A DNA stretch of 64,000 nucleotides, taken from positions 1 to 64,000 of IMG/VR virus record IMGVR_UViG_3300046514_000337, one strand, 5' to 3'. Made by a program: the position numbers and the translations under genes. The notes beneath the pieces were generated by a model. That model ran no database searches, had not been told where the DNA came from, and worked only from the letters and a program-made list of their open reading frames with translations. Each line of letters starts with the position of its first letter. Position 1 is the stretch's first letter. Shown here in pieces: positions 3,217 to 61,423 of this stretch. The DNA is from a virus.

Positions 3217-3258
3217 GGCTACTCTTCCTTCCTGGCCGACCACGGAGAGTGGCGCAAA

Positions 3259-3567: not shown

Positions 3568-3578
3568 GGCGCTCCATT

Positions 3579-26500: not shown

Positions 26501-29500
26501 CTCACGGCGTCCGAACTCGGGCGCGCCTTCATGAACGCCGCCGCCTTCCGGGCGAACGCCTTGATCTCCGCGTCCGACATCGGCTTCTCCTCCGGGTCCG
26601 GGTCGCTGATCCAGGGAGCCCACTGCGCGGGCGATGGCATCTTCGGGCACTCCTTTGCTGCGGGCGAGGTCACTGATAGCCGTCGCGTAATCGACGTTGA
26701 TTCCCTCGCTGTCCCGTCCCCCGAGCTTACCATAAAGCTCCTTCTCCGGATACCACAGAATGGCCTGAAGATCAGCGTTGGTGAGGTTGATCCCCTCTTG
26801 CGCGAGCAGCTCGCGGGTTCTGGCAACGCGCTCTCGTATCCACTGCCGCTGCGCGCCGGATTTGGGTGTCTCGTTAAGACCGTCCTTACCGGCAACCACG
26901 CGCTCCGCCGCGAGGACTAGTTCTGACTTGGTGTACTTGCCAGAGTTGTAGTCTTCGCGGTTAGCGTTGAAGTGCTTTTCATGTGCGTCAAAGATGCGGT
27001 TGGCTTCTTTCAGCAACCCCGGCGTCGTTTGCGGAACCTTCATCTGGTTCAGCGCCATTTCTGTCCGCAGTCGCTCCTGCTGCTTCGCAACCACCTCCGG
27101 TGATAGCCCGACCAACGTCCCGGTAAGCCTTCCCCATGTCCGCATGAACCACAGGTCCATGGCGACCGGATTATAGTTGCCGTTGAGGTTCTGGTAGAAG
27201 CCTTGGCCGATCTTTGGCCCGAGAATGGCCGACCCTTTGACCGCCGTGTCCAGGTTCTCGCCACCAATCTTGTGGCCCATGGCTGTCAGTTCTCTGACCG
27301 TGAAGTCCCTGGAAAGGAAGTCGCGCAAGCCATCTACCCCGCGGCCAGGCGCAATCTGTTCATGCGCGTCCATCAGCGCGTTTAGCTTGGCAAAATTGCG
27401 GTTCATCGCCGCCGCTTTTTTTGCCTTGATGTCCGTCGGGAAACGCCCGTTTTCCTTGAAGTATGCGTAGGCTGGCTCTGCCAACCGCACGTTCAAGGGG
27501 ACAGTCTCGCCCTGGCTGGTGATCGCGAGCGCTGCCGTAAAGCCCATCCGCGCGTTCGGATCTGTCTCGATTTCCGGGTGAATGGTGGTAGCCGCCGCCA
27601 TCGCCTGGCGCACTTTCCGTGTGTACCAGTCGAAGCCCGAGCCGCCCGTTCCCCACGCTCGTTGCAACGCTGCTTTGGCTTCGGACGCGAGTGAACGCGA
27701 CAGCAGTTCATCGGTGTGCGGCGCGGGACCTTCGATCTTTCCCGACCGAATGCCGAGCATTCTGAGCGCGGATTGACCGCGTTCCATAAGTTGCCGACCT
27801 ACAGTCGGAACGGCAACCGAGCGCAATGGCATGGCCGGATAGCGCGGATCAAGAAGATCGAGGGACGAAAGATTACGCTCAAGTTGCTGCCTGACCCCGA
27901 CTGGATTGGCGCCGGCAAAGCCGCGGCGTCCGAACAGCGGGTTCTGCTCCGTCTCCTTCGGTGCAAACAGCCCTTCGTCCGCCGGCTTCTGCCCCCCGCG
28001 CGGTCCTGCTTGGTCGCGCGCCGCCTGCGCCTGCACCGCCGATGGCTCGGTGCCCAGCAGCCCAAGTTGGCGCGGATCGTTGCGGATCGTCGGTTCGGCT
28101 GTTTGCGCCGTCGCGCGCTCTGGAGGCAGGATCTGCACCGCCTCGTATGCGCGGTCATAGCGCGCCATGAGGGCGTCACGGGCTTTGCGAGCCGTAAGGT
28201 ATTCATCATCCCCGATTTTGCGCGATCGGTAATCAGCCAATGTCTGCTGGTAGGATGGCTCCCCTGCCCGGAATGCTGCGTCCGCATCCGTGAGTTCTTG
28301 CCTGATTTGCTGCGGTGATCGTTCACCCAGTAACGGCGCACCAGATTGCGGCGGAACAGGCAGCCGCCGCCCGAACGGCACATCCTCGACGTTGCTTCCG
28401 AACCGCGTCGCCTCGTGGATCGCCTGCGCAACCGGCATCCCGTACTGCGCAAGCTGCACCGCATGATCCAGCGTCGCCCCGCCGAGCTGCACACCAGCGT
28501 CGTCAGCCGCCATGCGCACGTCTTCCGTCAGCGCCTCACGCCGCGCTTCCTCGCGCCCAGTAACATCAACGCCCGGCGTGATTTGCTCCGGCAGATGATT
28601 GCCGTATTGCTTCTGCCCCTTCAGTTCGCGGCTGACGAGATCAAGGAAATCGCCGATGGTGCTGTCCATTGGCAAGAAGCCAGCCTCGGCCGCAGCCTCC
28701 CGCGCGTAGTCGAGTTGCATCCCAGTTTTGCGCACGAGCCCGGGGCGAGCAATGTGCGCATCCATGGCGCGGAGATCGCCATGCGGCTGCAGACCACCGC
28801 GTTCGATTAGGAATGGCAGCAGCGAGGTACCGGGATCGGGGCGGCCAATTGCACCGATACTGGCGTCATTCGCCGCGCGCGGGGGGCGAAACGCTCCTAC
28901 GCCTTTCTCGAAAGCATCGACCGCATGTTTCGCGGCCTGCTGAGGTTCCGCCCCGCTTTCGGATGCTCTACGATATTCGGCCAGTAGATTACTCAGCGTA
29001 TTTTCGTAGCCGCTAGGTTGGCGCATCGCTACATTAGGGAAATCTGCGGTCCCTTCCATAAATTCCGCGAACGCCTCATGCGACGCGCTTTCCGCTTCTA
29101 AGTGCCCAACTCCGCCTTCCATAGCATCGGCATACACGCGGTCGGCGTAATCCCATGCGGCCTGCTCAATCCGTGACGGCGGTTTGACGGCAGGCGTGGA
29201 GCGCACCTCCATCGCCGGACGCTGATCTGGCGGTACGGCTTCGGGCGCAGTTGCAGGCGGGACAGAAGCAACAGGCGGCGTTGCTTCCATAGGCTTCGGT
29301 TCAGGTGGTGTAGCCACGGCTTGCGCCGTCTGTTCCAACTCGGTGCGCGCCGCCTGATCTGCCCGCTCGACCGGCTGAATGGCTGCCGCTGCTGCCGCTG
29401 GCTGCTTCACGGCCTCCGTCGCCGCCACGCGCTGCGCTGCCTCCGGGCCGATGCCGTCCTCGTTTTCGATCTCCTCTGGCGTCCGCACACGCGGCACGGC

Positions 29501-30415
29501 GGGCGGGGTCTCTGCCGACGGTGCCGGCCCCGATGGGTGCCCCGCAAGACGGCTCACAACAGCATGCCCCGCCGCAGGAATCGCCGTCGTCACCGCGGCG
29601 TTCAGCGCCGCTTCAGACATCCCCTCCGTGACCGGCTTACCCTGCTCGACGTTCTCCACACCGCGCTGCGCCACCGCTGCGCCGGGTTGAGCGACGAACG
29701 CCTGGAACAGAATGTCCTTCGCCGCCTGCTTGAACGGAGCCCAGCCGAACAGCGCCCACGATGCGCCCGTGAACGCGCCTTCCTGTCCGGCACGCAACAG
29801 CGCCCGATCGAAGGCACCGTTCGGATCGCCGCCCTTCGCCGTTTCCTCCGCAAGATACGGCGCGAGCGACTGAACCGCTGACACGCCGCCGGCACCCAGT
29901 GCAGCCCCTACCAACGGCCCGACGGGTCCGGTCGCTTCGGATGTGGTCGCGCCAGCGAGGCCGCCAGCAATGCCTCCGACCAGCGATGGCATGCTCTTCG
30001 CCAGCCCGTAAGCGATCTTCGGCGCGGCGCGCGACGGCGACAGCAAATCGCCGAATGAAAGCGGCTCCGTGTAGTAGGGCTGCGCTTCCTTTGGTGTCGA
30101 CGGCGCGGTGCCTGCCATTGCCGCGGGCGCCTGCGACAGTTCCCGAACAGCGCCAGCCACGCCCGAAACAGCGGCGCGCGGAATATCGGAGAGCGACGGC
30201 TGCGGCTCCTCCGGCGGTAGATCCTCCGCCTTCGCCACAGGGAGCGCCGCGCGCGAGGGGCGACCGCTGCCCTGCTGCGCGTAAAGGTTCCACGGCCCTT
30301 GCGCTGGAACAGCAGACGCCGCTGGGGGCGCTTGCTGATACAACGTCCATGGTCCAGCCGCTGGCGCGATTGGTGCGGCGGTATCGTCCTGTGGGGTGCT
30401 ATCGAGAGGGGGCAC
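23591..30415 (-). CDS. giant polyvalent internal virion protein, 2274 aa, with HExxH zincin-like motif
   Basis: A single open frame of 2274 residues. The N-terminus has two repeated blocks (GPWTLYQQ and GPWNLYAQ) and a Gly/Ala-rich hydrophobic region at about 150-200 that could enter membranes. A helical domain near 920-1100 (GFDWYTRKVRQAMAAA onward) resembles domains of phage polyvalent proteins. Near residue 1380 the motif NHEAVHALEALG gives HExxH, a zinc metallopeptidase signature, with downstream glutamates (REAIAEEFARY) as possible third ligand. The C-terminal 700 residues are helical with a hydrophobic segment. Such giants are packaged and ejected with the DNA in short-tailed phages. 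Confidence 0.75.
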   Translation of the reverse strand: MPPLDSTPQDDTAAPIAPAAGPWTLYQQAPPAASAVPAQGPWNLYAQQGSGRPSRAALPVAKAEDLPPEEPQPSLSDIPRAAVSGVAGAVRELSQAPAAMAGTAPSTPKEAQPYYTEPLSFGDLLSPSRAAPKIAYGLAKSMPSLVGGIAGGLAGATTSEATGPVGPLVGAALGAGGVSAVQSLAPYLAEETAKGGDPNGAFDRALLRAGQEGAFTGASWALFGWAPFKQAAKDILFQAFVAQPGAAVAQRGVENVEQGKPVTEGMSEAALNAAVTTAIPAAGHAVVSRLAGHPSGPAPSAETPPAVPRVRTPEEIENEDGIGPEAAQRVAATEAVKQPAAAAAAIQPVERADQAARTELEQTAQAVATPPEPKPMEATPPVASVPPATAPEAVPPDQRPAMEVRSTPAVKPPSRIEQAAWDYADRVYADAMEGGVGHLEAESASHEAFAEFMEGTADFPNVAMRQPSGYENTLSNLLAEYRRASESGAEPQQAAKHAVDAFEKGVGAFRPPRAANDASIGAIGRPDPGTSLLPFLIERGGLQPHGDLRAMDAHIARPGLVRKTGMQLDYAREAAAEAGFLPMDSTIGDFLDLVSRELKGQKQYGNHLPEQITPGVDVTGREEARREALTEDVRMAADDAGVQLGGATLDHAVQLAQYGMPVAQAIHEATRFGSNVEDVPFGRRLPVPPQSGAPLLGERSPQQIRQELTDADAAFRAGEPSYQQTLADYRSRKIGDDEYLTARKARDALMARYDRAYEAVQILPPERATAQTAEPTIRNDPRQLGLLGTEPSAVQAQAARDQAGPRGGQKPADEGLFAPKETEQNPLFGRRGFAGANPVGVRQQLERNLSSLDLLDPRYPAMPLRSVAVPTVGRQLMERGQSALRMLGIRSGKIEGPAPHTDELLSRSLASEAKAALQRAWGTGGSGFDWYTRKVRQAMAAATTIHPEIETDPNARMGFTAALAITSQGETVPLNVRLAEPAYAYFKENGRFPTDIKAKKAAAMNRNFAKLNALMDAHEQIAPGRGVDGLRDFLSRDFTVRELTAMGHKIGGENLDTAVKGSAILGPKIGQGFYQNLNGNYNPVAMDLWFMRTWGRLTGTLVGLSPEVVAKQQERLRTEMALNQMKVPQTTPGLLKEANRIFDAHEKHFNANREDYNSGKYTKSELVLAAERVVAGKDGLNETPKSGAQRQWIRERVARTRELLAQEGINLTNADLQAILWYPEKELYGKLGGRDSEGINVDYATAISDLARSKGVPEDAIARAVGSLDQRPGPGGEADVGRGDQGVRPEGGGVHEGAPEFGRREPTAADERPHPEAVRAAVETAQRIAGKSVRIETYDAAHDAFRVRFPDGHEEQVFGYTLGRLIRAAIEPERTAWNLNHEAVHALEALGVFKPGEMKALEAAAQRGNWAEQHRIAERYPEQTPQQQMREAIAEEFARYSTTPKATVPIIQRLGAKITQFFDRLRNALAGRGFRTAEDVFGAMQRGEIGAREPAAHAPSLAESQAAAQRFETAQGRRPAPEAQMGRREKELPLAAAAKDRLGFAKRVADEVKQLFSPTSRGPQAKSTEHLIRASSAERAQANARSTDALERFGHMIARLPEAEQLAITDRRERGEAQPTPELNQVIDALRQQQGQWAQKIRSLGPEYLKTLRENYMGHIWANYPEWKAGIEAEEAAAQARGEGIAQAQARGKSPLKGSGAFLKQRTFDTQREGMDAGLIPVTKNPIEMQLLKLYEMQRFYHGVKLAEDIKNSGLAHWVPYNDEGAARASGYAKLDDTAFQPRVTEPGEYGRKEYGNWWAPEQVARVFNNYVSRGLAGHSSIYDAVRGAGNALNSAQLSFSGFHATFIAFDTMMSKLALGIQQLSRGEPIRGLGTMAKGLSPTTIFSTVARGSALREAYLHPENASPEMRRLVQALVKGGGRIAMDPFYRSTAAGSFIKNMGDLKNPSGILHDAWQMAKDTPIAAPLRIVGRFIDTLNQPLMGVMVPRAKLGVFSELASDFLRRNPEATDEQFAAAMTKAWDSVDNRMGQLVYDNLFWNKVSKDLAFITTRSVGWNLGSVREIGGGGVDAVKAVGDMVRGRKPELTNRMAYVIAMPIITGMYGALLNYAMTGQGPQSLLDYFYPRTGSETQPGVPDRTTLPGYIKDVMAFKNDPLGTIGNKTQPLFETGIELGKNRDYYGGIINMPGVDNPMVSYPEYLLNQAIPFSWRGWLKTWEAGASSLTQALNFFGIQPAPQSITNPQRGEAYQQRQDIRALRARMKENAKGRITMGAPP

Positions 30416-45715: not shown

Positions 45716-46485
45716 CAGGAGCCTCGCCCGATGTCAGGATACTTCGCATGAACCTTCGCGCGCACGGTCGCCTTCTGCGCCGGAGAGCCGTGCTGCGATA
45801 CCCGCGCGAGGGCGTTTCTGGCGTGAGAGGCATCTGGGATCGGATACGAGCCAGACCCAGCCCCCTTCGGTCCCGCGCCCTTGCCTGGCAGCGCGAAATC
45901 GCTCTTGGGGAGATGCTGACGCTCGGAGGCAGTCAGACGCCCCCCGCCAGCCAGCTTGATCGGCTTGTGCTCGCCGCCGTGCTCCGCCGTCTCATGCTGG
46001 CGGATCGCGCTACGGATCATCGAGGCATCGGCTGCCCGGTCGTCGTGTGTTTCACGTGAAACACTCCCGCCGCGCGCCCGGTTATGCACCGCCGGCAGCG
46101 CGCCAGGCTCGTCGATCGTCGGACGCGCGGGCTGGTCATGCGCAGCGGCGTTGAACCGCTCCTTGATCGAGCCGCCAGCCGCGCGTTGCCGATAGCGATC
46201 AATGTTGTGCTGGGCAGCATCGCCTATGCGGTGCGAGTCCTCGATCAGTCCAGAAACAGCACCGAGCGAATCGCTCGGGCCGACATTTGACGCAGTTGGA
46301 CCTGGATATGGCTCGCCGCTTGGCCACGCCTTGCCGCGCGAGTAGATGTCGTCATTGGCCGAACCGCCCGTCGCCCGCTTCTTCGCCGGAGCACGATCCA
46401 GCCGCCGCTTTGCGCCCTGGCCCTCTACCGAGCCGCCAAAGGCACGCCGCAACCGCTTCGCGTAGAGCTTCTCATGCGGCTGCAT
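45715..46485 (-). CDS. virion-region protein with repeated Gly-Gly motifs, 256 aa
   Basis: Basic N-terminus (MQPHEKLYAKRLRRAFGGSV). Repeated short motifs: KRATGGS, QRAAGGS, NRARGGS, LAGGGRL. The C-terminus (KSDFALPGKG ... SYPIPDASHARNALARVSQH) is a small helical module typical of phage/prophage proteins with ALP-SYPI-HARNALARV. The codons of GSVSRET carry a perfect parS site (46048-46063). Function unknown; perhaps a scaffold- or DNA-associated protein. Confidence 0.55.
   Translation of the reverse strand: MQPHEKLYAKRLRRAFGGSVEGQGAKRRLDRAPAKKRATGGSANDDIYSRGKAWPSGEPYPGPTASNVGPSDSLGAVSGLIEDSHRIGDAAQHNIDRYRQRAAGGSIKERFNAAAHDQPARPTIDEPGALPAVHNRARGGSVSRETHDDRAADASMIRSAIRQHETAEHGGEHKPIKLAGGGRLTASERQHLPKSDFALPGKGAGPKGAGSGSYPIPDASHARNALARVSQHGSPAQKATVRAKVHAKYPDIGRGS
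46048..46063. other. parS: perfect parS site 1 (ParB-binding sequence)
   Basis: TGTTTCACGTGAAACA, the 16-bp consensus of chromosomal parS, inside the coding sequence of the 256-aa gene (VSRET in frame). One more flanking base pair (G...C) extends the palindrome. Chance occurrence of an exact 16-mer in 64 kb is about 1 in 70,000. Confidence 0.9.
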
Positions 46486-46648
46486 CTAGGCTCTCGCTCG
46501 TCGCGTCACATTGGAGCTGCACGCACGCCTCCAATGAGGCTGGGTGCCTAACTATGGCGGCGCTGTCTGGCAACAGGATATAACTGCCATCGTCCGACAG
46601 TTCCCCGCGCTCATCTTCCCAGTGTAGTCGCCGCTCGATAACCACCAC
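46472..46648 (-). CDS. 58-aa hypothetical protein
   Basis: GTG at 46648 behind GAGG, filling the space between two genes and overlapping the next start by 14 bp. Sequence begins MVVIERRLHWEDERGELSDD, then GSYILLPDSAAIVRHPASLE, an acidic alpha-beta protein. The exact fit between neighbours (10 bp after the upstream stop) supports it. Confidence 0.5.
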   Translation of the reverse strand: MVVIERRLHWEDERGELSDDGSYILLPDSAAIVRHPASLEACVQLQCDATSESLDAAA

Positions 46649-46658
46649 GCCACCGACC

Positions 46659-47099
46659 TCAGTCGTCCCGCTTGTCGGTCGAGGTCTGCAGCGAAGCCCC
46701 CGACGGCGCCGTCAGCCGGGCAGCCGACGTCATGGGCGACGTGTCCGCACCAATCCCGCCGCCACGCTTGCGCCCTGGCACGCGGTCCATCCTGTGATGC
46801 CGCGGGGCCTTTCCATCAACGTGCATCGGCATCGAGCCATGATGCACACCGCCGCCGCGCTTCAGTGCGATCGGGCCGCCTTGCTGCAGCACAATCGGGC
46901 CGCCTTGGGCGCGCTTGTGATGCTTCGCCCGGCCGCCGTGCTTGTGGCCGCCGTACCCGCCGGCCATGGCGTCCTTCTCGGTCTTCGACCCGACCGCGTT
47001 GTACTTCTGCGATCCGCGGCCTTCCTTCTCGTCCTCGGCCAGCTCCTCCATGCGCGACTCCTCAGCACCGCCGCCAGAAGCCCTCTTGTGGTGTGCCAT
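46659..47099 (-). CDS. Gly-Gly motif protein, His/Lys-rich, 146 aa
   Basis: MAHHKRASGGGAEESRMEEL from an ATG behind GGAGG. Motifs recur: KRASGGG, HGGRAKHHKRAQGG, LQQGGPIALKRGGG, GRKRGGG. Rich in His and Lys, low complexity, probably unstructured. May bind nucleic acid or capsid; no family. Confidence 0.5.
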   Translation of the reverse strand: MAHHKRASGGGAEESRMEELAEDEKEGRGSQKYNAVGSKTEKDAMAGGYGGHKHGGRAKHHKRAQGGPIVLQQGGPIALKRGGGVHHGSMPMHVDGKAPRHHRMDRVPGRKRGGGIGADTSPMTSAARLTAPSGASLQTSTDKRDD

Positions 47100-47114
47100 C
47101 AACTGGCCTCCTTA

Positions 47115-48386
47115 TTAAAACTGCGCGTTGCCCATGAGCGAGGTCGCGCTCACGGCATTCGCCAAGATCATCTCCGACAGCGAGTTCCGCACGCCCATCG
47201 AAAGAATGACGCCCGTGAATGCCGTGCCTGAGTGGGATCCGTTCGAGGCGGTCGAGCCGATGCCTCCGCCGAGGCCGCCGATCGCCGATGTCTGGATCGT
47301 GCCGCGCACATCAGCCGTCGTGGCCGTGCTCGCCGTGCCGGAGGCCAGACCTGCAGTGAAGCCCGTGGCAGCCACGTTCATGCCAGCGTTCCACCAAACC
47401 TCGGTGTTCTCGATCTGCGCCGCCCTCGTCGCGAAGCCGAATACATCCGATGTGCCCACCGCATAGGTGTAAGTAGCATCAGTGAAGGCCGGTGTCACTG
47501 ACGCAATGTACTTGAACGCCTTGATGCCATAGGTCGTGACCGATGTGCCCGGCACGCTCGTGATCGTCTCCGTCATGGCCTGGCCGTAGACGTCGTAGCC
47601 CTTGACGGTAAGCGCGCCGCCAGCGCCCAGCGCGTTGTTGCAGGTGATGACCACGCCCCGCGCAATCGCCTGCCGCGGATCGAGGAACAGCCCGGGCCCC
47701 GAGGCAAAGTAAGGAGCCGCCGCCGTAGGCACGCCTGCCGAGCCGCCTTCGATCGGCTGCCAGATATTGCCCGTGCCAACCCGTGCGCCGCCTGTCGCCG
47801 CCGAAAACGGCGCCGTGCTCGTCATCACCGCTACCGTCGCCGAGGTGATGCTCTGCACCGTCGTCATCCACGGCGTGGTGGTCGTCGCGATGGCCGCAAA
47901 CACCAGCGGCATGCCGGGCACCAGCACCGACGTATCCGCAAATGTCACGTTGGCCGAGCCACTCACCAGCGTGGCCAGCCCAAACCCGAAGTCGAGGCAC
48001 AGCGCCGGCGTGACGATCGTCTGACCGCCGTATCCGTTGCCCGTTGCCGATATCGGCGAAATCGGGATGTTCGCCACCGCGCCGAAGGACGGCACCGCCA
48101 GCGTCATCGCTACGCCGCTCGCCACCGTATGCGCAGCCGCAATATTTGTGGTGAGGTGCGCCGCTGGCGTTCCAACCGCCGAGCGGTAAAGCGCGGCATT
48201 GAACAGCGCCGGAGCAATGCCCTTAAAGCCCCCCGCGCGTTCCTTGTCGAAGATAAACCGCGGATCGGGCACGCCGTAGCCGTGGTAGAACATCGACGGG
48301 CCGAGACCCTGCTCGCCGCCCGCGACGCCGCCCGCAGAGAGCGAGCCGTAGGCAACGAACGGGCCTTGACCACCTGTCATTGCCAT
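47115..48386 (-). CDS. virion protein adjacent to the major capsid gene, 423 aa
   Basis: Beta-rich Ala/Gly/Thr protein (FGFGLATLVSGSANVTFADT, VLVPGMPLVFAAIATTTTPW). Helical N-terminal part (AGGFKGIAPALFNAALYRSA). Size and position directly downstream of the capsid gene suggest a head decoration, fibre or cement protein. ATG behind GGAG. Confidence 0.55.
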   Translation of the reverse strand: MAMTGGQGPFVAYGSLSAGGVAGGEQGLGPSMFYHGYGVPDPRFIFDKERAGGFKGIAPALFNAALYRSAVGTPAAHLTTNIAAAHTVASGVAMTLAVPSFGAVANIPISPISATGNGYGGQTIVTPALCLDFGFGLATLVSGSANVTFADTSVLVPGMPLVFAAIATTTTPWMTTVQSITSATVAVMTSTAPFSAATGGARVGTGNIWQPIEGGSAGVPTAAAPYFASGPGLFLDPRQAIARGVVITCNNALGAGGALTVKGYDVYGQAMTETITSVPGTSVTTYGIKAFKYIASVTPAFTDATYTYAVGTSDVFGFATRAAQIENTEVWWNAGMNVAATGFTAGLASGTASTATTADVRGTIQTSAIGGLGGGIGSTASNGSHSGTAFTGVILSMGVRNSLSEMILANAVSATSLMGNAQF

Positions 48387-48435
48387 TTCAGGCGCTCCTT
48401 AGTTGGCAGGTCATGCTATTTCTTCCCCACCACGG

Positions 48436-49350
48436 TCAAGATGTGGGGAACGTGCCCCAAATACCTCTTGGGTTTTTATACCCAGCAAAGTACCTTTCGT
48501 AGCCTTTCACTAATAGGTTATCAGTCGAGTCATCCACCCACATGGACATCTCGAACTCCTGCCGCTGCAGGTAGAGCAGCCCGTCGTAGTTCGTCTGCAC
48601 GAACCAGGCGAAGTTCGACGTGAAGAAGTCCATGACCTCGTAGCCGTCGGGGAGCGAGCCGGTGGCGCGCATGGCGTTGGCATCGTTGTCCGCGGTGCCG
48701 GGGCGCAGCGTCGTGTGCCACAGGCGCGCGGCGACCCACTCGTTGTAGGGATGCACGAGCAGCCGGCGCCCCCGCCAGAAGCCCTTCAGGCCCGCTTGAT
48801 CGCGGAACAGCGTGCGGATCGAGGTGAGTGCGGTGAGGAGCGCCGCTTCGTTCAGGTCGAGTTGCGCGCTCGACGGCGTGTTCGCCCAGGTGCCATAGTC
48901 GTAGGGATGCGACGCGGAGCACATGGCCACGCCGTCCCCCTGGACCGCACCATTATAGACATTGGCGGTGTTCAGGACGTTGGCAGCCTGGATTTCCTTG
49001 TACTGCGCGAAGCTCTCGTGCAAGCCAAGGTTGGAGGCCGGGAACTCCGCTTCATACAGGTTGTCGTCGATCGCCTTGCGGGTGATGGCGTAGCCCAGCC
49101 CCACCTCGAAGTGCTCGTGGTTATAGATGAAGCGCTCGCCGGCGTTGTTGTCCATGTAGGTCGCGGCGCCCTCGGTCTTGAGAGCAGCGAGACCCATGTA
49201 GCGGTTCTCGGCGGTGCGCTCGATGCCGAGGTTCGACTTGCCTTGCCAGAAGATTTTGCTCCACTGAGTCGGGATCTGCTCGTATTTGCCTTCGATGCCG
49301 CGGAGGCCGGGGCGGGTGAGGTCGTAGATGGAGGCGACTGAAATGGCCAT
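48436..49350 (-). CDS. major capsid protein, 304 aa
   Basis: MAISVASIYDLTRPGLRGIE from an ATG behind GGAGG. The sequence includes NAGERFIYNHEHFEVGLGYA and the domain YFAGYKNPRGIWGTF at the end. Pattern of helices and strands fits an HK97-fold coat protein of about 300 residues: E-loop and spine helix N-terminal, P- and A-domain after. Flanked by scaffold-type genes upstream and a decoration-type gene, in the expected order. No signature peptide is decisive. Confidence 0.7.
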   Translation of the reverse strand: MAISVASIYDLTRPGLRGIEGKYEQIPTQWSKIFWQGKSNLGIERTAENRYMGLAALKTEGAATYMDNNAGERFIYNHEHFEVGLGYAITRKAIDDNLYEAEFPASNLGLHESFAQYKEIQAANVLNTANVYNGAVQGDGVAMCSASHPYDYGTWANTPSSAQLDLNEAALLTALTSIRTLFRDQAGLKGFWRGRRLLVHPYNEWVAARLWHTTLRPGTADNDANAMRATGSLPDGYEVMDFFTSNFAWFVQTNYDGLLYLQRQEFEMSMWVDDSTDNLLVKGYERYFAGYKNPRGIWGTFPTS

Positions 49351-49362
49351 TGCTTCGCCTCC

Positions 49363-50007
49363 TTATGCGACTGCTGTGACGGTGCGGGTTTCGGCGAAGT
49401 TGAACATCACCACCACCCAGTTGTAGGCGGTCGTGTCGTCCACACCCGGAGAGCCCACCTCGAGGAAGTCACTGGCAAGGCCAACGATGCGGAAGGGCAG
49501 CGTCGTGCCCGCCGAAGCGACCGCCGTGAAAAGATCGATGTAGCAGGACGACTGCCCGGTCGTGGTGTTGCCGACGTTCGAGGCGCCCGTGTAGTTGATG
49601 TCCACGGTATTGCCGACGTTGGCGATCGTGGCTGGGCTGACGGTGCCGCTCGAGGCCCCGGTCTGCGCGAGAAACCGCGCGTTGGGGTTCGTGAAGATAT
49701 TGGCCGGGAACGGGTTGGCGAGGGCGTCGCTCGTGCCCGGCCAGAACTTCGACATCACCGGGATTTTCCCGGCGATGGAGTAGTATTCGCAGTCCCAGAA
49801 GACGCCGGCCGCCTGGGCGCTTGAGCCCGCCGCCATCTGGCGGATGTAGCCGGCCTCCGTGGAGGTGCCCGTGACGACCGGATCGCCGCGAAAGATCGCG
49901 GTCGTGTCGGTCTTCAGGATTTTCCGGGGATTGAAGCTGAAGTTCGTGACCGTGCCGTCGCCAGACCAGAGCGGCATCAGGCCGAATGGAAGATTGGTGT
50001 TTGCCAC
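49363..50007 (-). CDS. head protein, 214 aa
   Basis: The GTG at 50007 (9 nt after GGAGG) is preferred to a TTG two codons upstream. MANTNLPFGLMPLWSGDGTV start, then beta-rich with TGSSAQAAGVFWDCEYYSIA. Ends 12 bp before the capsid gene. Likely a head decoration or minor head protein; position is the main evidence. Confidence 0.55.
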   Translation of the reverse strand: MANTNLPFGLMPLWSGDGTVTNFSFNPRKILKTDTTAIFRGDPVVTGTSTEAGYIRQMAAGSSAQAAGVFWDCEYYSIAGKIPVMSKFWPGTSDALANPFPANIFTNPNARFLAQTGASSGTVSPATIANVGNTVDINYTGASNVGNTTTGQSSCYIDLFTAVASAGTTLPFRIVGLASDFLEVGSPGVDDTTAYNWVVVMFNFAETRTVTAVA

Positions 50008-50200
50008 GGGCAACAGCCTCCATCGCTCGGAAGCTGGTGGCGGGCTCCGCCTGGGCTACCGATGATGAGGCTTGGTTCCCGGCATGGGAACGGTCGCGGC
50101 CGACGCGGCGGCCAGACCCCTCGAATGCCTCCAGCGCGGAGGCGGCGGGACGTTAGGCGCAAGCGGTGAGACAGGTCAAGCTAATTGTTCTAGAGAAAGC

Positions 50201-50233
50201 GGGGAGGCAGTGGTTCCCGCCGCTGGCCTCCCC
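50201..50233. other. strong hairpin in the gap before the head genes
   Basis: GGGGAGGC (50201-50208) pairs with GCCTCCCC (50226-50233). Inside, AGTGG pairs with CCGCT (one G-U) around loop TTCCCG, giving about 13 bp with one bulge. On the minus strand U-poor sequence follows, so it is not a classical terminator. The gap 50008-50266 holds no gene. Confidence 0.6.
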
Positions 50234-50266
50234 TAAGCCTGCACCCTTATGCAGAAGGATGCAGCT

Positions 50267-50623
50267 ATGAGCGTCGTAGAAATACGCGAAACCACCGTAA
50301 CACAGGATTTATCTGGCGCAATCGTTCAGCTTCGGATTTCCGACGCAAAGCTGCCAGACGACCCTGCCGAAATTCGTCTAACCATTCAGGCGGCAGTTCC
50401 GGCATTCGAACTGCCTTTGCTCGCACAGGTTCAGGGGGATGCGCTAAAGGCAGCATCATCTGTACCACGTGTTGCCGAGGCTTGCGCCCGTCATTTTCCC
50501 TCCGTTACTCTCAGCGCACGTCAAGAGGATTGTTGCTGCGGGCCGGAGTATACACCGGCTATGGCGGTGTTCCTCCGCCTCGGCATGCCGGCGATCAACC
50601 CGGCTTTCGGCAATGTAGTCTAG
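50267..50623 (+). CDS. 118-aa hypothetical protein, rightward island
   Basis: The ATG at 50267 has AAGGA 8 nt upstream. MSVVEIRETTVTQDLSGAIV, LRISDAKLPDDPAEIRLTIQ and PAFELPLLAQVQGDALKAAS look like a real alpha-beta protein. CCC in QEDCCCGPEYTP and a hydrophobic end (VFLRLGMPAINPAFG). Opposite to surrounding late genes. A 67-aa leftward frame (50265-50468) overlaps but lacks a ribosome site. Confidence 0.5.
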   Translation: MSVVEIRETTVTQDLSGAIVQLRISDAKLPDDPAEIRLTIQAAVPAFELPLLAQVQGDALKAASSVPRVAEACARHFPSVTLSARQEDCCCGPEYTPAMAVFLRLGMPAINPAFGNVV

Positions 50624-50679
50624 CCTTTCCGCGCGTGTCCTCTCCACGCCGCCGCAGCGTCTACGCTATACCACGAAAC

Positions 50680-51258
50680 TTACTCAATAGCCATCCCATC
50701 GCTGATCGGCATCCGCGTCACGCGCACGCTCGGCGCGATGCCCGGATGGTTCCGTGGCCCGGTGCCAGACGGTGCCGTCGCCAGCATGGCGTTCGCGTTC
50801 TGCTTCGCCAGCTTCGACTTCAGGTATGCGCCACGATGGCGGTTGTATGCCTCGTTCTCCGGCAGTTCGTAGAGCCGCTGACCCTCAAGTTCGATCGCGC
50901 CCTGATGGCCAGGCGGCATGAACAACCCATCATGCCGTGAGGCCGGCACGGGCCGCCAGCCATTGCGCTCGGCCCGCTGCGCACGGCGGTTCGTGTCCGG
51001 CATGCCGTAGACTTCGGTGCGAAACCACTGGTACACCATGCCGGCGGGGATGATTTCCTCCGGCACCTCGAACTGCAGCGTCTCGTCCTCAAAGCCGCGC
51101 GCGATGATCTCCTCGTCCGTCAGGCGGCGCGATTGCAGACCATGCGGCTGCAGCGGCTCGCTGAGCGGCTTCTGCGCCGCCGTCAGCTCAGCATCCATAA
51201 CGCTGGCGTCGAGACGGAGCGGCTTCTTAGCCGAGGGAGCATCAGCCGAGGTGCTCAT
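50680..51258 (-). CDS. hypothetical virion-region protein, 192 aa
   Basis: MSTSADAPSAKKPLRLDASV from the ATG at 51258. Then a region (GMVYQWFRTEVYGMPDTNRR, then NGWRPVPASRHDGLFMPPGH) resembling a small phage protein family found beside scaffold genes. Overlaps the scaffold stop as ATGA. Structural role inferred. Confidence 0.55.
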   Translation of the reverse strand: MSTSADAPSAKKPLRLDASVMDAELTAAQKPLSEPLQPHGLQSRRLTDEEIIARGFEDETLQFEVPEEIIPAGMVYQWFRTEVYGMPDTNRRAQRAERNGWRPVPASRHDGLFMPPGHQGAIELEGQRLYELPENEAYNRHRGAYLKSKLAKQNANAMLATAPSGTGPRNHPGIAPSVRVTRMPISDGMAIE

Positions 51259-52226
51259 CGTGCGTTCCTCCACGGATTGCCTCTCTTGAAGCCCTCGCTC
51301 CCAGTGGCCTGCTCCATGCGCAACGCCTCAGCCCAGGACTGTGATACGAGCTGCATGTCGGGCACCTGCCGCCCATTCTCCTTCTTCGTAAAGCCCCATA
51401 CCTTCATGGCGTGATCCACGAACTCCTTGGGAATGTGATCTCCTCTCGGGCGCGTTTGGCTGTGGAGAGAAGCCGTCTGCCGTCCGGGCGCGGCCTGCGG
51501 AATCTGGCGCTGGCCACCGTTGGGAGGTGCCGGCTGCTCTGGATTGGTCAACCCTGCTGTCCTTTCGACGAACTGGAAATACTCCGGACTGTTTTGAGTG
51601 AGACCGCTCCCCATCGCGAGAGAATGAGCGCCGACAACACGAGCCTGGAACGCCGGATCGGTGTAGAACAGCGGACGGCCATCGGAGCCTACGTGGCTTC
51701 GTATCCAAGTCGCCGCCCGGGCATCGCGCGTTGCCAGATCGGCTTCAATCGGATCGGCACCATCCTGCGGCTGTTGTTGCCTAGGCTGTTGCGCTGGCTC
51801 GCGAAGCTGCTGATTGCGCCGCGCCTCCATCTCCCGCTTGCCGGCCTCGAGTTGCGTAATCCGCGCTCCCACCTGCCCGGCCTGCACCGACAGATCCGCC
51901 ACCTTCTCGAAATCGCCGGCTTCACCGGCAGCCTTCATCTGCCCCCGGATCAGATCGGCCTGGCGCAACTCGGCATCAAGCGCATTGCTGACTGAGGCGA
52001 AGTCCGATGTCTCCCGCTCCTGCGTGACGGTCTGCAACTGCTCGGTGACGTTGGCGACCTGCGCTTGCGCCGACCGGAGGCTCGCCTGATAGCGCCGTTC
52101 ACGCTCGACGCGATCCGTCTCGAACTGCGCCTTGATCGCATCGATGGACGTAGCGGGGTCGGCGGGATCTGGCTTGTCGTCGATCGGTTCTTGTTCGGGC
52201 GGGGCGGCTTCTGCTGTTTCGCTCAT
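51255..52226 (-). CDS. scaffolding protein, 323 aa
   Basis: Acidic N-terminus (MSETAEAAPPEQEPIDDKPD), then coiled coil (RYQASLRSAQAQVANVTEQL, about 45-145), a Gln-rich linker and a basic C-terminus (GSEGFKRGNPWRNAR), which in other phages contacts the coat. Absent Cys, low complexity and place in front of the capsid gene fit a scaffold of podovirus type. Confidence 0.65.
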   Translation of the reverse strand: MSETAEAAPPEQEPIDDKPDPADPATSIDAIKAQFETDRVERERRYQASLRSAQAQVANVTEQLQTVTQERETSDFASVSNALDAELRQADLIRGQMKAAGEAGDFEKVADLSVQAGQVGARITQLEAGKREMEARRNQQLREPAQQPRQQQPQDGADPIEADLATRDARAATWIRSHVGSDGRPLFYTDPAFQARVVGAHSLAMGSGLTQNSPEYFQFVERTAGLTNPEQPAPPNGGQRQIPQAAPGRQTASLHSQTRPRGDHIPKEFVDHAMKVWGFTKKENGRQVPDMQLVSQSWAEALRMEQATGSEGFKRGNPWRNAR

Positions 52227-52789
52227 CAGAACACCACATCCGGCCGCGACACTGGCATTTTGATCGCCCGCTCATTCACGAAGTGCAGGCAGTTCACGCC
52301 GTTGATCGAAAGCCTGAACCCGTTGGCATCACCGCGGCGGAAGATCACCCAGTCATTCACCTCGAACTTGTCGGCGTCGGTCCACGTCAGTTGGGGCGTC
52401 TCCTCGAAACACCGCGCCCCCATCTTCAGCACCAGCCCAACATGGCCCTGGTAGATGTCCTCATCGAGAACCCGATCAGGCCGCTGGATGCTTTCCCACG
52501 GGAACTTGTCGGGCCGCTTGTACACCGCCACCAGAACCGCGTTCAGCGTCACCCGCACCGTATTCAGCGCCCACCCGACTTGATCGCGAATACGCTGCTT
52601 TTCGGACTCAAAGAACGCCATCGCCTCCGCCGTGTTGGGGCCGACCTCGACGCCAGGAACACGCTGCGGCGGGGCATCCTCGGCTTCTGCAGCAGCCATC
52701 GCGGCCGCACGCTGTTCCTCCGCCCGCCGCGCGTTCCGCTCCTGCATCCGCGCCTCACCGATATGCCTCGGCAACACCAAACTAGACAC
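52226..52789 (-). CDS. GroES-like-fold structural/assembly protein, 187 aa
   Basis: A helical N-terminus, then a beta barrel with VGLVLKMGARCFEETPQLTW, FEVNDWVIFRRGDANGFRLS, ending IKMPVSRPDVVF. The order (entry strand, GDWV-like turn, small hydrophobic strands) resembles phage co-chaperonin-like proteins. Could assist capsid folding or be a head component. GTG at 52789 overlaps the upstream stop; SD not ideal. Confidence 0.5.
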   Translation of the reverse strand: MSSLVLPRHIGEARMQERNARRAEEQRAAAMAAAEAEDAPPQRVPGVEVGPNTAEAMAFFESEKQRIRDQVGWALNTVRVTLNAVLVAVYKRPDKFPWESIQRPDRVLDEDIYQGHVGLVLKMGARCFEETPQLTWTDADKFEVNDWVIFRRGDANGFRLSINGVNCLHFVNERAIKMPVSRPDVVF

Positions 52790-53090
52790 CGTACAGCGGC
52801 TCCTTCTTTTCTACGGCCTCGGGCTCGCCGCTCGCCTCGCGCTCAGCCTCCCTGATGGCCTTCAATGCGTTCGAGTACCCGCGCAGTTCCCCTACCGCCT
52901 CGCGATAGGCTTCCAGCGTTGGGAGCGTGCCTTCCGTCAGCGCGCCGCGCACCCGCTCGGAATGCTCCTGCAATAGGCGCGTCAACCGGCCAATGACCGT
53001 CTGCTCGGCGTAGGTCAGCGACGGCTTCGGCTGCGGGATAACCCCCTGTTTGAGAGGCGCCCAGGCGTCGGGGTTGAGATCGATCCTCAT
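52782..53090 (-). CDS. hypothetical helical protein, 102 aa
   Basis: MRIDLNPDAWAPLKQGVIPQ then helices (EQTVIGRLTRLLQEHSERVR, EAYREAVGELRGYSNALKAI). Its ATG directly abuts parS site 2 (53091-53106), so the parS occupies the ribosome-binding position and no SD is seen. Position suggests a head-assembly protein. Confidence 0.55.
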   Translation of the reverse strand: MRIDLNPDAWAPLKQGVIPQPKPSLTYAEQTVIGRLTRLLQEHSERVRGALTEGTLPTLEAYREAVGELRGYSNALKAIREAEREASGEPEAVEKKEPLYGV

Positions 53091-53106
53091 TGTTTCACGT
53101 GAAACA
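53091..53106. other. parS: perfect parS site 2
   Basis: TGTTTCACGTGAAACA, identical to site 1 at 46048-46063, in the 27-bp gap between two leftward genes, immediately upstream of the 102-aa gene's ATG. It is not in a coding region, so codon use cannot explain it. Confidence 0.92.
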
Positions 53107-53117
53107 TTTGGCAGACC

Positions 53118-55273: not shown

Positions 55274-55528
55274 TCAAGCTCGTGCATCCCAAAACCAATA
55301 ACGACGGTTGCCATCGCGGGCATACATCAGATTCGAGAGCCAATCGCCCTCAAACCATGTTTGAACGCCATCAGCGCGTCGCTTAATGTCCAATTCCTTC
55401 CGGGGATGAAGCTCCGCCAGAAGATCGCGGCCGTTCACATGGCTGAAACTGGCATGTACAAGCGCATCAAAGCGCTTTTGCTTCTCGTCCGCCGACAGAG
55501 CCAGTAATTCAGCTTTGGTAGCCATCAT
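55274..55528 (-). CDS. hypothetical protein, 84 aa
   Basis: MMATKAELLALSADEKQKRF, then HASFSHVNGRDLLAELHPRK and a Trp-rich C-terminus (RYWFWDARA). The ATG starts at the last base of the portal stop. No family. Confidence 0.55.
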   Translation of the reverse strand: MMATKAELLALSADEKQKRFDALVHASFSHVNGRDLLAELHPRKELDIKRRADGVQTWFEGDWLSNLMYARDGNRRYWFWDARA

Positions 55529-57948
55529 TATGGCCCTCCCCCCGGTTGAGGTCGCGTTGCCAGTCCAGCCGCAGCAACAGCGTGGTCGTCCGCGTGCGCA
55601 ACCATCTCGTGCTGTAGCCTCAATCTCTCCGTCTGCTCGCGCGTCATATCGATCTCGGTCTTCGCCGCACGATCCGCCGCACGGTCCTGGCTCTCGACCA
55701 TCGCCTCGTGCGCCCGCAACTGCTGATCGGCCCCAACCGCCGACCCTTCCGCCGCCGTCTTCTGCGTCTGCGCCCCCAGCAGCGGCACCTTCGCATCGGC
55801 CTCCTTCGCCCGCGCCTGCGCCGTCGCAATCGACGCCTGCGCCTGCATCATCTTCGCCTGCGTCGCCTGCGGATCCGGTGGCTTCGCGCCGGCCCCACCA
55901 GCCGCCGCTGCCTGCTGCGCCTGGAACGCCTCGAACTCCTCCTGCGTGTTCAGAAGCGAGTCCGTGCTCGTGACACCCATGCCGCGCAGAACCCACTCCG
56001 CCGTAGGCACCACCTTGAACACCCCCGGCGGTGTCTGCAGCGCCATCTGGAACACCGCCATCCGCTGCATCACCCGATGCAACATCGACGGCGTATTCGG
56101 ATCAGCCGCCGGCACCAGATCGTAATCGTCCAGCGCCGCCAGCAGCGTAGCCTCATCCCACTGACGCGCCGGCTTCTTATTGTGACGCCAAAACGCCTCC
56201 GGGTCCTCACGCAACCGCTCGGCAATCAGCCCAAACTCCTCCGCCTGCGCCGCATGCAGCCGCTTAAACACCGCACCCGTCAGCTTCGTCGCCTCGATGA
56301 TGTTCGCCATCACCGTCCCGACCGGAGCGTTCTGCACACCCTCGCCCGTCGGTACATTCGGCCGCGACCCCACCCGAGCCGCCGCCTGCGCCACATTGTC
56401 CAGCAGCGACAACCCCGCAGGCTGCGGCCCCTTGTACGGCAGCGGCGAGATCATGTTCCCGATGGGCTGCCCACCAGTCTGAATCGGAACACCGGCCCCA
56501 GGCGCAACCCGGAAGATGTTCGTCAGTTGCTTCCCCAGCACATCCACATACAAAAAGCCCGGGAAGTTGGAAAACATCATCGAATCGAGCATCAGCCGCC
56601 ATCCGGCCGTCAGTGCCATCGTCGTATTGCCGAGGATGTGCATCAGCCCGATGCCGTAAAAACTAAGGACCGGCGCAAACGAATACTTCACAAACGTCCG
56701 CCGAGCCGCAAAGTCCTTGTCGCCAGGCATCCAGTCGCGCCGAATCTCGAACACCTGTCGACTGTCCCGGTCCATCGATACCTTGTACGGGCGCGGCACC
56801 CGGATTTCGCCGTCGTCCGTAAACCCGCCACCGTTCCCCGGCGCCCCATCATCCAACCCACGGATATTCAGTTTCGTATAGCACTCCCAGACCGTGTGCG
56901 GCTTGTCTTCAGGACGCTGCGCGCTGCGATCATACCCCTGCGCCTCAGCCACAGCCTCCTGCACAGGATTCTGCACATACAGGGGCTGGCTAATCCGCCC
57001 CTCCGCGTATACCCCCGCTTCCATCAGCTTCAGGATATCGTCCTTCAGCTTCTCCATTTCGTGCGTTACTCGCGGCGCATTCGCCGTGTCAGTCACACCA
57101 GCATCGACAATCAGATCCTTGGAACTGATGCTCTCGCTCACCGGACGACGCCGCAGTGGGCAGTTGAACACCTTCTTAAACGCACATCCCAGCAACCCAA
57201 CCACGAACGCCATCTGGTCAGTATCTGGGTAATACTCCGTCGCCGTATTCGTCAGAAAGTGGTTCAGGTCCTTCTCGAGATCCGCCGCCAGCTCATCGCC
57301 CATATCCAGGGCTGGGCCGCCGTTGTGCCCCATCCCGGCTTCGTTCGCCGCCATAACAGCCTGAACCGCCGTATCCACGTTCTCCGGCGCGATCACACCA
57401 GCCGTCGCCATCGCCTGCACAGCGAACCGAACAACCTCCTCCGGCACCCCACTCGGAGCCGTGGCGTCGTTCCGCACCTTTACCGGACCATCCGCCGGCA
57501 GCATCTCACCCCTGAAATCCGACTGAAACCCAAGACACGCCTCGAGCAGCAGCGGATGCCGAACCGTGCTCATCCCCTCCAGAGGCGCACCACTCCCACC
57601 CGCATCGCTCCGCGGCGGCTCCAACCGCAGCCCAAGCATCCGAATGGCCTCGGCCGTCATCTCCATCACCCCGCGCCGGCTGGCGATGTCCGCCGTCACC
57701 CCGCGCCAGACCTCATCCCCGATCCGCGCCACCTCGTTCTGGTCCAGCACGTCCACCAGGTTCGCGAAGTGCTTCCCGTTCCCCGCACGCTTCGCCGGTC
57801 GCCACTCTTCCTCGGGCAGTTCGTCGATCGAGTTGTCGTCGTTGAGGATCAGCAGGCCGCCGGTATCGGGGTTGACCGTCCCCTCGCGCCCGTCCGGGGC
57901 GGTACCGTACTCGGTGTCCTCACGGGGGCGGAGGTTTACGACGACCAT
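55528..57948 (-). CDS. portal protein, 806 aa
   Basis: Large P22/podovirus-type portal. N-terminus acidic; the central part has LDSMMFSNFPGFLYVDVLGK and IFRVAPGAGVPIQTGGQPIG, followed by a helical region (HRVMQRMAVFQMALQTPPGV) and a long C-terminal coiled coil (about residues 690-790), the barrel-type extension found in portals with short tails. Position between terminase and scaffold genes fits. Length is at the upper end for portals. Confidence 0.8.
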   Translation of the reverse strand: MVVVNLRPREDTEYGTAPDGREGTVNPDTGGLLILNDDNSIDELPEEEWRPAKRAGNGKHFANLVDVLDQNEVARIGDEVWRGVTADIASRRGVMEMTAEAIRMLGLRLEPPRSDAGGSGAPLEGMSTVRHPLLLEACLGFQSDFRGEMLPADGPVKVRNDATAPSGVPEEVVRFAVQAMATAGVIAPENVDTAVQAVMAANEAGMGHNGGPALDMGDELAADLEKDLNHFLTNTATEYYPDTDQMAFVVGLLGCAFKKVFNCPLRRRPVSESISSKDLIVDAGVTDTANAPRVTHEMEKLKDDILKLMEAGVYAEGRISQPLYVQNPVQEAVAEAQGYDRSAQRPEDKPHTVWECYTKLNIRGLDDGAPGNGGGFTDDGEIRVPRPYKVSMDRDSRQVFEIRRDWMPGDKDFAARRTFVKYSFAPVLSFYGIGLMHILGNTTMALTAGWRLMLDSMMFSNFPGFLYVDVLGKQLTNIFRVAPGAGVPIQTGGQPIGNMISPLPYKGPQPAGLSLLDNVAQAAARVGSRPNVPTGEGVQNAPVGTVMANIIEATKLTGAVFKRLHAAQAEEFGLIAERLREDPEAFWRHNKKPARQWDEATLLAALDDYDLVPAADPNTPSMLHRVMQRMAVFQMALQTPPGVFKVVPTAEWVLRGMGVTSTDSLLNTQEEFEAFQAQQAAAAGGAGAKPPDPQATQAKMMQAQASIATAQARAKEADAKVPLLGAQTQKTAAEGSAVGADQQLRAHEAMVESQDRAADRAAKTEIDMTREQTERLRLQHEMVAHADDHAVAAAGLATRPQPGGGP

Positions 57949-59520: not shown

Positions 59521-61164
59521 CTAGGTCCTGTATAGGGGTTGAAGCCGCCCAGCCCGATCATCTGCCATCGCCCCCAACCGATCCGCCTCCACAGCCTCAA
59601 CCTCCCGCATCAGCATCCCGTTGTCCCGCATCCATCGAAGCGCGCTCGTTACAGCATCGCACCTATCATCATGCCGCCCACGCGGAAACAAACTAATCTC
59701 ACGGATCGTATCCTCACACCACTCAGGCCACGCCAGTTCGTCCGTCCCCGCACGCAACACCCGAGGCGCATACACCATCCCATCCTCAAACAACGGCACA
59801 ACACTCATCACCCGCGACACCTTATCGTACCCTCGCCGCCCCGCCACACTCCCACGCGGATCAGTCATCGTTATCGAATACGGCTTGCCTTGAAACACCC
59901 GACCCAGTTCCTGCACCACACTATATCCCGTCGCCTTGTTCTCAACCAGCAACGTATTCACCTTATACCGCCGAGCCGTCTCATCTATCCGCTGAACCGC
60001 ATCATTCAACGCCATCCGATCAGCCCAACACCGAATCAACATCACCTTCGGCATTCCATGACGCTGCTCGGTGAACGTCCCCAAAACCGCCATCGCCGTC
60101 GGATCGTTCACCGTGCGCTCAGTGAACGCCCCGTCAACCCACGCCACCACAAAATCAAACCGGGGAAATTTCGGCGCGCTCACATCAACAGGGTCCCACG
60201 GCTGCCACCAGTCATCCCGAATGATCGCCCCACCACGCGGCACCGGCAACTGCTGAAACTGAGACGCTACCGCATATTGCCCCATCGCACGCTTGTCGCG
60301 CTCGACAACCCACGCCGGGAAACGCTCAGGGAAACACAACTCCCCTCGCACCTCCCACCATTGCCGGTCGTTCCGACCAGGCTCCAAGTCCTCAACCGTC
60401 CGCGGCTCTCTCCAACCTATCGACGTCTCGCACCGCCGCTCGTCCAACTCCATCGGGATCATCAGGTGCGTGTAGTCCCCACCATCACTCAACAGCGTCC
60501 CCGTCGCATCATCCTCATGCGTCCGCTGCTCAATCGCCACAATCGCACTCGCCTGCGGATCGTTCATACGTGTCGGCAGCGTCTCCCGAATGTACCGCTG
60601 CGCCACCCCGCGAACCACAGGACTGTCCGCCTGCTTCACCGAAATCAAGTCATCCAACAGCACCCGATCGCCGCGCTCCCCCGTCCCCACCCCATCCACC
60701 GACGTCGCCAGCTTCCACCCCGTCTTGTCATTCGCCAGCTTGCCTACCCCCGTCTGCGTCACCTCAAACCGATCGCCCCAATACTTCGTAAACATCGGCG
60801 ACCGTAGCAACTGAAGCGCCCTCCCATTGTCGCGCTCTGTCAGCGATGACGTATACGACACACACACATACCGCATCGACGGATGCCGCACCCACTCCCA
60901 GCACGGCCAGAATACCTGCGTCGTCAAACTCTTCGACATCCCAGGAGGGCAGTTGATAATCAGCCGCGCTATCTCCCCTGTCGTCACCGCCTCAAGATGT
61001 TCGCAAATCGCCCCGATCGCCCAACCGTTTACGAACGGACGCGATGGCTCTACCGCACTCCAGCAAAAACGTATGAAATCAATCAGCCGCTCCTCAGCCT
61101 GCGCCGCACGCAGAAACTCAATGTCCGCAGCCGTCAGCCCGCCTAGGTCAAGCGGGGCCGCCAC
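59521..61164 (-). CDS. terL: terminase large subunit
   Basis: 547 residues from a GTG at 61164, with GGAGG 9 nt upstream and a 17-bp overlap with the previous gene. Walker A is INCPPGMSKSLTT near residues 70-82. Walker B is DRVLLDDL near 166-173 (Asp in place of the usual final Glu). Nuclease residues include AWVDGAFTE and the terminal RHDDRCDA. It powers DNA packaging and cuts the concatemer. Family: phage terminases with PPGMSKS-type loops. Confidence 0.9.
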   Translation of the reverse strand: MAAPLDLGGLTAADIEFLRAAQAEERLIDFIRFCWSAVEPSRPFVNGWAIGAICEHLEAVTTGEIARLIINCPPGMSKSLTTQVFWPCWEWVRHPSMRYVCVSYTSSLTERDNGRALQLLRSPMFTKYWGDRFEVTQTGVGKLANDKTGWKLATSVDGVGTGERGDRVLLDDLISVKQADSPVVRGVAQRYIRETLPTRMNDPQASAIVAIEQRTHEDDATGTLLSDGGDYTHLMIPMELDERRCETSIGWREPRTVEDLEPGRNDRQWWEVRGELCFPERFPAWVVERDKRAMGQYAVASQFQQLPVPRGGAIIRDDWWQPWDPVDVSAPKFPRFDFVVAWVDGAFTERTVNDPTAMAVLGTFTEQRHGMPKVMLIRCWADRMALNDAVQRIDETARRYKVNTLLVENKATGYSVVQELGRVFQGKPYSITMTDPRGSVAGRRGYDKVSRVMSVVPLFEDGMVYAPRVLRAGTDELAWPEWCEDTIREISLFPRGRHDDRCDAVTSALRWMRDNGMLMREVEAVEADRLGAMADDRAGRLQPLYRT

Positions 61165-61423
61165 GCCGCCGATCCTCCGCCGCCTGCAACTCACGCAGGA
61201 ACGCAACCTCCGCAACCGTCAAACCACCGCGCCACTTGCGCCGCCCCGGAGGCACCAGCCGCCCCCGCTCCATCCGCCCCGCCTGCCGCAGCATCGACGA
61301 CGCCATCCGCAAGTTCCCCGCCACATCACCCACGCCGCCGAGCCGCGCCACGCGATGCGCCAGCGTCTCCGCCTCCATCGCCAGACGCTCGATCTCTGCC
61401 TGGCGGAGGGGGTCAAGTAACAT
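61148..61423 (-). CDS. hypothetical coiled-coil protein before terL, 91 aa
   Basis: Helical, Arg-rich (RQAEIERLAMEAETLAHRVA, then GLTVAEVAFLRELQAAEDRR). Its place directly upstream of terL and its helical DNA-binding look make a small-terminase role possible, but no HTH is clear. Overlaps both neighbours. Confidence 0.5.
   Translation of the reverse strand: MLLDPLRQAEIERLAMEAETLAHRVARLGGVGDVAGNLRMASSMLRQAGRMERGRLVPPGRRKWRGGLTVAEVAFLRELQAAEDRRRGGPA

Follow-up and report, generated by a model that had tools for sequence, protein, structure and literature searches.

Why would a phage genome that encodes no detectable partition protein carry two perfect copies of a bacterial centromere-like site among its structural genes, and which protein would read them? 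The question is raised by a 64,000-nucleotide stretch of viral DNA (henceforth the window; positions 1 to 64,000 of the IMG/VR record IMGVR_UViG_3300046514_000337), in which the 16-base-pair (bp) sequence TGTTTCACGTGAAACA, a chromosomal-type parS site of the kind bound by bacterial ParB, occurs exactly at 46048-46063 and again at 53091-53106. We propose, with a probability of roughly 0.55, that the two sites are functional parS that act in cis and are read by the ParB of the host, the likeliest benefit being retention or positioning of the phage DNA.

Two exact parS sites in a late operon

Both copies agree with the parS consensus TGTTNCACGTGAAACA, a 16-bp palindrome with the core GTTNCACGTGNAAC (PMC7022226), and the window contains no other perfect palindrome of 16 bp. 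No third match to TGTTTCACGTGAAACA with up to three mismatches was found in the 64,000 nucleotides, and no further exact copy across the whole 65,422-bp virus record. The sites and their surroundings are as follows, L152 being the closest distinct relative of the window phage.

46048 to 46063, unstranded: parS site 1, exact match to TGTTTCACGTGAAACA within a 256-amino-acid gene, at in-frame codons for SVSRET
53091 to 53106, unstranded: parS site 2, exact match to TGTTTCACGTGAAACA within a 27-bp gap, adjoining the ATG at 53090
53091 to 53117, minus strand: 27-bp intergenic insertion around site 2, from the sequence and the comparison with L152
45715 to 46485, minus strand: 256-amino-acid late gene with site 1; other phages share its conserved C-terminal domain (phrog_16160)
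52782 to 53090, minus strand: 102-amino-acid late gene directly after site 2; open reading frame with a homolog in L152
53118 to 53753, minus strand: 211-amino-acid late gene, Gly/Pro-rich, immediately preceding site 2; open reading frame with an L152 counterpart at the same junction
55528 to 57948, minus strand: portal protein gene, a marker of the late region (phrog_1216, E 1.6e-12; also from relatives)
59521 to 61215, minus strand: terminase large subunit gene (phrog_38, E 9.2e-78)

The initial annotation had reported both exact sites, the first in codons for VSRET, and had held that two such copies could not be due to chance; exact matching and the in-frame SVSRET reading confirm the former, and the expected counts bear out the latter. 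A third-order Markov model predicts 6e-6 exact copies, and recoding of the late genes with given protein sequences and codon usage predicts 1e-5. Dinucleotide shuffles gave a mean of 0.13 matches at up to three mismatches, with two matches in none of 100 shuffles. At site 1, the codons AGT, GTT, TCA, CGT, GAA and ACA, mostly rare in this late region (63% GC), have a joint probability of 5e-6. Because this spelling is so improbable, site 1 stands out at the DNA level and not in the protein.

Both sites lie within the minus-strand late operon, in a region that encodes the terminase, the portal and a head-stabilization-like protein. Site 2 takes up most of the 27-bp gap in the translation-initiation region of the 102-amino-acid gene, whose ATG it adjoins. 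The same gap holds a six-codon mini-open reading frame, ATGTTTCACGTGAAACAATGA, which has a stop codon overlapping the next start codon and may have a role of its own. A reading of the sites as intrinsic terminators or hairpins was rejected, as neither is part of an extended palindrome or followed by a U tract; among 146 parS sites in IMG/VR, 60% lack any palindrome extension, which rejects this reading in general, and extended arms are confined to some phages, e.g., Gordonia phage Woes.

No partition genes were detected alongside the sites. Neither ParB_N (PF02195) nor the ParA-type AAA_31 family (PF13614) was matched in the phage, in a record that may be incomplete, which agrees with the earlier remark that no ParA or ParB gene is visible. 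A phage-encoded ParABS system of the P1 or RedRock type, with ParA and ParB genes of its own, is accordingly not supported. The proposal in the initial annotation of a plasmid-like prophage found no support: the phage has no match to the phage/tyrosine integrase family (PF00589), and none of the scanned proteins, many of which match no family, was recognized as a replication initiator. A plasmid-like or integrated prophage was thus set aside for lack of integrase, replication or partition genes. A 2274-amino-acid protein (23591-30415, minus strand) is without a PHROGs match.

parS without ParB across phages

The exact TGTTTCACGTGAAACA 16-mer is present in 286 of 50,697 annotated phage records, at 824 places on both strands and hence 412 sites, while three control palindromes in the same search occur in 1, 0 and 0 records. 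The 286 records are redundant, 87 of them being Listeria phages. Those listed come from many unrelated groups, among them herelleviruses of Listeria and Lactobacillus, phi29-like phages of Bacillus, phages of Gordonia, Arthrobacter, Microbacterium, Clavibacter and Butyrivibrio, Roseobacter phage DSS3P8, Vibrio phage phi 3, gokushoviruses and inoviruses; no Escherichia or Salmonella phage is among the matches listed, in counts that carry no per-host denominators. We take the Listeria and Lactobacillus herelleviruses and the phi29-like phages to be virulent groups, and since several parS-bearing phages come from such groups, a plasmid-prophage role is unlikely as a general answer.

In IMG/VR, at least 120 stretches carry an exact parS, as opposed to 11 and 1 for control palindromes; some of the short contigs may be bacterial DNA misclassified as viral. 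ParB_N was matched in four of these 120 contigs and in none of 18 parS-bearing cultured phage records. The 18 cultured phages together hold 51 perfect parS cores, a few of them terminal-repeat duplicates (e.g., in Vibrio phi 3); 33 lie beyond the site by which the phage was selected, and the reversed pattern is absent. By crude gene calls, 40% of the IMG/VR sites fall outside genes as opposed to 8% of random positions, i.e., the sites avoid genes. The parS sequence thus shows a strong and specific enrichment in phages, mostly without a ParB match, and the phenomenon is not confined to the window phage.

These comparisons also bear on whether the two window sites could be a product of chance, codon usage, assembly or misbinning. 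The window stems from a single metagenome-derived record, and neither position is conserved among more distant relatives, as such an origin would allow. With an expectation of about 1e-5 by the codon-aware estimate, hardly any control palindromes in the databases searched, and independent near-identical contigs that hold the sites, we regard an artefact as largely refuted and its residual probability as close to negligible.

Site variants follow the host in part. The Pseudomonas-type parS TGTTCCACGTGGAACA, which matches the native sites of P. aeruginosa and P. putida (PMC7022226), occurs in 58 records, and 17 of these are Pseudomonas phages. This tracking speaks against the idea that the palindrome is the operator of an unrelated DNA-binding protein encoded by the phage, with a merely convergent likeness to parS. 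The window phage does encode helix-turn-helix proteins, one of which (3259-3648) is sigma-70 region 4/GcrA-like; however, the identical 16-mer is found in tailed phages, inoviruses and microviruses that are unrelated and have no regulator in common, which makes a phage operator very unlikely.

Individual genomes illustrate how diversely the sites are placed. In eight Korravirus genomes of Arthrobacter phages (L256-L263), picked by exact match and therefore illustrative rather than an unbiased estimate of conservation, an intergenic parS lies between polA and purA (locus 901-916); its 14-bp core is constant and its outer pair switches symmetrically from T-A to C-G. The C-G form occurs in 89 Arthrobacter phage records. 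A 5.9-kilobase inovirus (PQ006149.1) has six exact copies, at 635, 662, 1414, 2857, 4096 and 5628, three of them directly 3' of stop codons. In Gordonia phage Woes, the sites at 3001 and 3422 are centered in longer perfect palindromes with arms that differ between the two. Vibrio phage phi 3 carries parS at 821 and 2934, near the genome end in the terminal repeat and next to A1/A2, and Pseudomonas phage vB_PpS_SYP at 294 and 963, likewise near the genome end; DNA with such end-clustered sites perhaps enters the cell first. In Listeria phage A511, the site at 2001-2016 overlaps the annotated start of gp51, with a GTG in the palindrome placed as start codon. Four uncultivated viral contigs (L018, L045, L054 and L064) contain three to five exact parS within about 1 kilobase and have no ParB_N match.

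This diversity is informative for two further explanations. If ParB spread from both window sites, it might repress or delay the late structural operon; the placement of both sites in that operon, with site 2 where translation starts, would suit such transcriptional timing. Sites located in a terminal repeat, between polA and purA or at gene ends in other phages do not fit a shared role in late genes, and we give this possibility little credence. Alternatively, ParB on the phage sites might load host SMC to organize, resolve or help package the replicated DNA. Cells load SMC via ParB-parS (PMC10197239, PMC7022226), and the window sites are central in the late region. There is, however, no direct sign of SMC loading, the window sites are apart from the terminase genes, and up to six sites are found in inoviruses, whose packaged DNA is single-stranded. 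We consider this role improbable.

Host group and relatives of the window phage

A megablast search of the late region against annotated phages gave no match. Pointers to the host come from the early region, which encodes RecT and two proteins linked to the bacterial cell cycle and DNA methylation:

2671 to 3243, minus strand: homolog of the cell-cycle regulator GcrA (PF07750, E 7e-14; match to PDB 7ye1)
4281 to 5477, minus strand: N6/N4 DNA methyltransferase (PF01555, E 1.7e-41), with Caulobacter CcrM as second-best PDB match (6pbd, E 3.5e-15)

Beside the GcrA homolog, the small minus-strand protein at 3259-3648 matches sigma-70 region 4 and a GcrA-like N-terminus; together, the two may interfere with host cell-cycle transcription. 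GANTC, the target of CcrM, is strongly depleted in the window (55 observed, 247 expected), which would fit avoidance of the CcrM site. As no relative of the GcrA homolog was found in the bacterial genomes searched, the host was narrowed via homologs of the portal protein, which lie in genomes of Rhizobium, Bradyrhizobium and Acidisoma and represent prophage relatives. Taken together, the GcrA homolog, GANTC avoidance and these prophage relatives indicate that the host is very probably an alphaproteobacterium. The relative-bearing genomes contain clusters of TGTTTCACGTGAAACA or of variants differing at one to two bases, with 0-2 exact copies each, and parS of the TGTTTCACGTGAAACA type is reported for Caulobacter and Hyphomonas (PMC7022226). 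On these grounds, TGTTTCACGTGAAACA is a natural parS of the likely host group.

Near-identical contigs retain both sites wherever the respective positions are covered. L152, with 59% portal identity, has neither site at the window positions. At the site 2 junction, its two genes overlap as ATGA without a gap, and the 27-bp stretch in the window is thus an insertion relative to L152; site 1 falls in a linker of the 256-amino-acid protein whose length varies between the two phages. L152 has a perfect parS core of its own, CGTTCCACGTGGAACG, elsewhere in the same region (position 17021 of L152). The initial annotation had named a lack of conservation in close relatives as grounds for refutation; the outcome is mixed, in that neither position is conserved but the closest relative has a different core in the same region. 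Among 37 relatives, a perfect core is present in two (L152, also labeled G015, and G008) and the reversed control in none; at up to one mismatch, the contrast is weaker, with 10 records as opposed to 5. The sites therefore appear to have been gained within particular lineages, at places where they cause little disruption, rather than inherited at a fixed position.

Proposed recruitment of host ParB and its meaning

From the parS type of the host group, the enrichment in phages and the existence of ParB-less carriers, we infer with good support that the window sites recruit host ParB, as the initial annotation had suggested. In the proposed sequence of events, host ParB would bind each palindrome and close as a cytidine triphosphate-dependent clamp, and clamped ParB would slide over the surrounding late region, marking the phage DNA with the nucleoprotein tag that the host origin carries. 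Tagged DNA might then engage host ParA, polar anchors and SMC, so that the infecting or replicating genome would be held at, or segregated with, the host origin machinery and thereby kept from loss during delayed lysis or host division. PMC10197239 and PMC7022226 describe the loading of ParB at parS, its spreading and its recruitment of SMC and ParA as established for chromosomes. For the phage, binding by host ParB is the best-supported of the predicted steps, and spreading and a benefit from retention or positioning are less certain.

The main rival, ahead of SMC loading and late-gene timing, is a decoy function in which replicating phage genomes soak up host ParB and disturb segregation or division, without the phage DNA itself being segregated. 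In number of exact sites, the phage equals or exceeds an entire genome of the related hosts (0-2 copies), and through its copy number the phage sites would soon outweigh those of the host. Moreover, virulent groups, for which partitioning seems less useful, carry sites, and ParB is given as essential in Caulobacter and Hyphomonas (PMC7022226). One or two sites are nevertheless a modest sink, since arrays would be expected of pure decoys, and phages with a single site exist (W09 and W10). We judge titration unlikely on balance.

Several observations weigh against retention through host ParB. Most of the relatives searched lack a perfect core, and conservation of both positions was not found beyond near-identical contigs. 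A host-match test with the streptococcal variant AGTTTCACGTGAAACT returned only four Sulfolobus virus records. RaK2-like Klebsiella jumbo phages carry the Pseudomonas-type site inside annotated baseplate genes, and Enterobacteriaceae are without chromosomal par (PMC7022226). No enrichment of CtrA sites was found in the window phage, which gives no backing for a lytic-deferment circuit. Finally, the present evidence fits retention, titration and SMC loading alike.

The closest precedent for retention by host ParB is Bacillus phage phi29, in which spore entrapment of the phage genome involves the host ParB protein Spo0J (Meijer et al. 2005, as described in PMC9437464). There, too, a phage without its own ParB exploits a chromosome-segregation protein of the host, and the phi29-like phages B103, Goe1, BSP11 and Chedec 11 carry exact parS. 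The window phage likewise combines parS with lack of ParB, but phi29 acts in a sporulation setting under Spo0A control, whereas alphaproteobacteria do not sporulate and ParB use by the window phage is a prediction. RedRock and other cluster A mycobacteriophages (PMC7157519) as well as P1 also have ParB-binding centromere sites on phage DNA; in contrast to the window phage, which has chromosomal-type parS and no detectable ParA or ParB, they encode both proteins and use their own repeats. SGI1, a non-viral mobile element, hijacks the parABS system of IncC plasmids (PMC10954446) and thus similarly uses the partition system of another replicon, yet the donor is a helper plasmid rather than the host chromosome. 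The chromosomal ParABS-parS systems of Caulobacter, Hyphomonas, Rhizobium and Bradyrhizobium share the identical 16-bp site, which in the window lies in a phage genome without ParA or ParB and not at an origin. The principle is thus already known in one case, phi29, and what appears to be new is its unexpectedly wide distribution. No report of chromosomal-type parS as a general feature of ParB-less phages was found in the literature searched; the primary phi29 paper and a 2007 parS survey might discuss it.

Binding sites for host cell-cycle machinery are also borne by alphaproteobacterial phages with CtrA sites and lytic deferment (PMC9437464), and GcrA homologs are already known in such phages; the window phage differs in having ParB-parS instead, without CtrA-site enrichment. 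An alphaproteobacterial counterpart of phi29 might keep its genome in place until the cell cycle permits lysis, and phage survival during lytic deferment is described as an open question in PMC9437464. As CtrA-site enrichment is absent, this link is only suggestive for the window phage. It is, on the whole, probable that phages as different as tailed phages of many hosts, inoviruses and microviruses have repeatedly evolved the strategy of carrying host-type parS without ParB, by which they parasitize the centromere machinery of the host with variants at least partly matched to its ParB, and that the window phage is an alphaproteobacterial case with a GcrA homolog.

If host ParB indeed loads on phage genomes, such phages would have a second life inside the host segregation system without lysogeny genes, one that gene annotation overlooks because a 16-bp site marks it in place of a gene. 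Scans for 16-mers would then serve as a simple predictor. This would bear on the persistence of virulent phages in slow-growing or dividing cells and would speak to how genomes of alphaproteobacterial phages survive deferred lysis, as discussed in PMC9437464.

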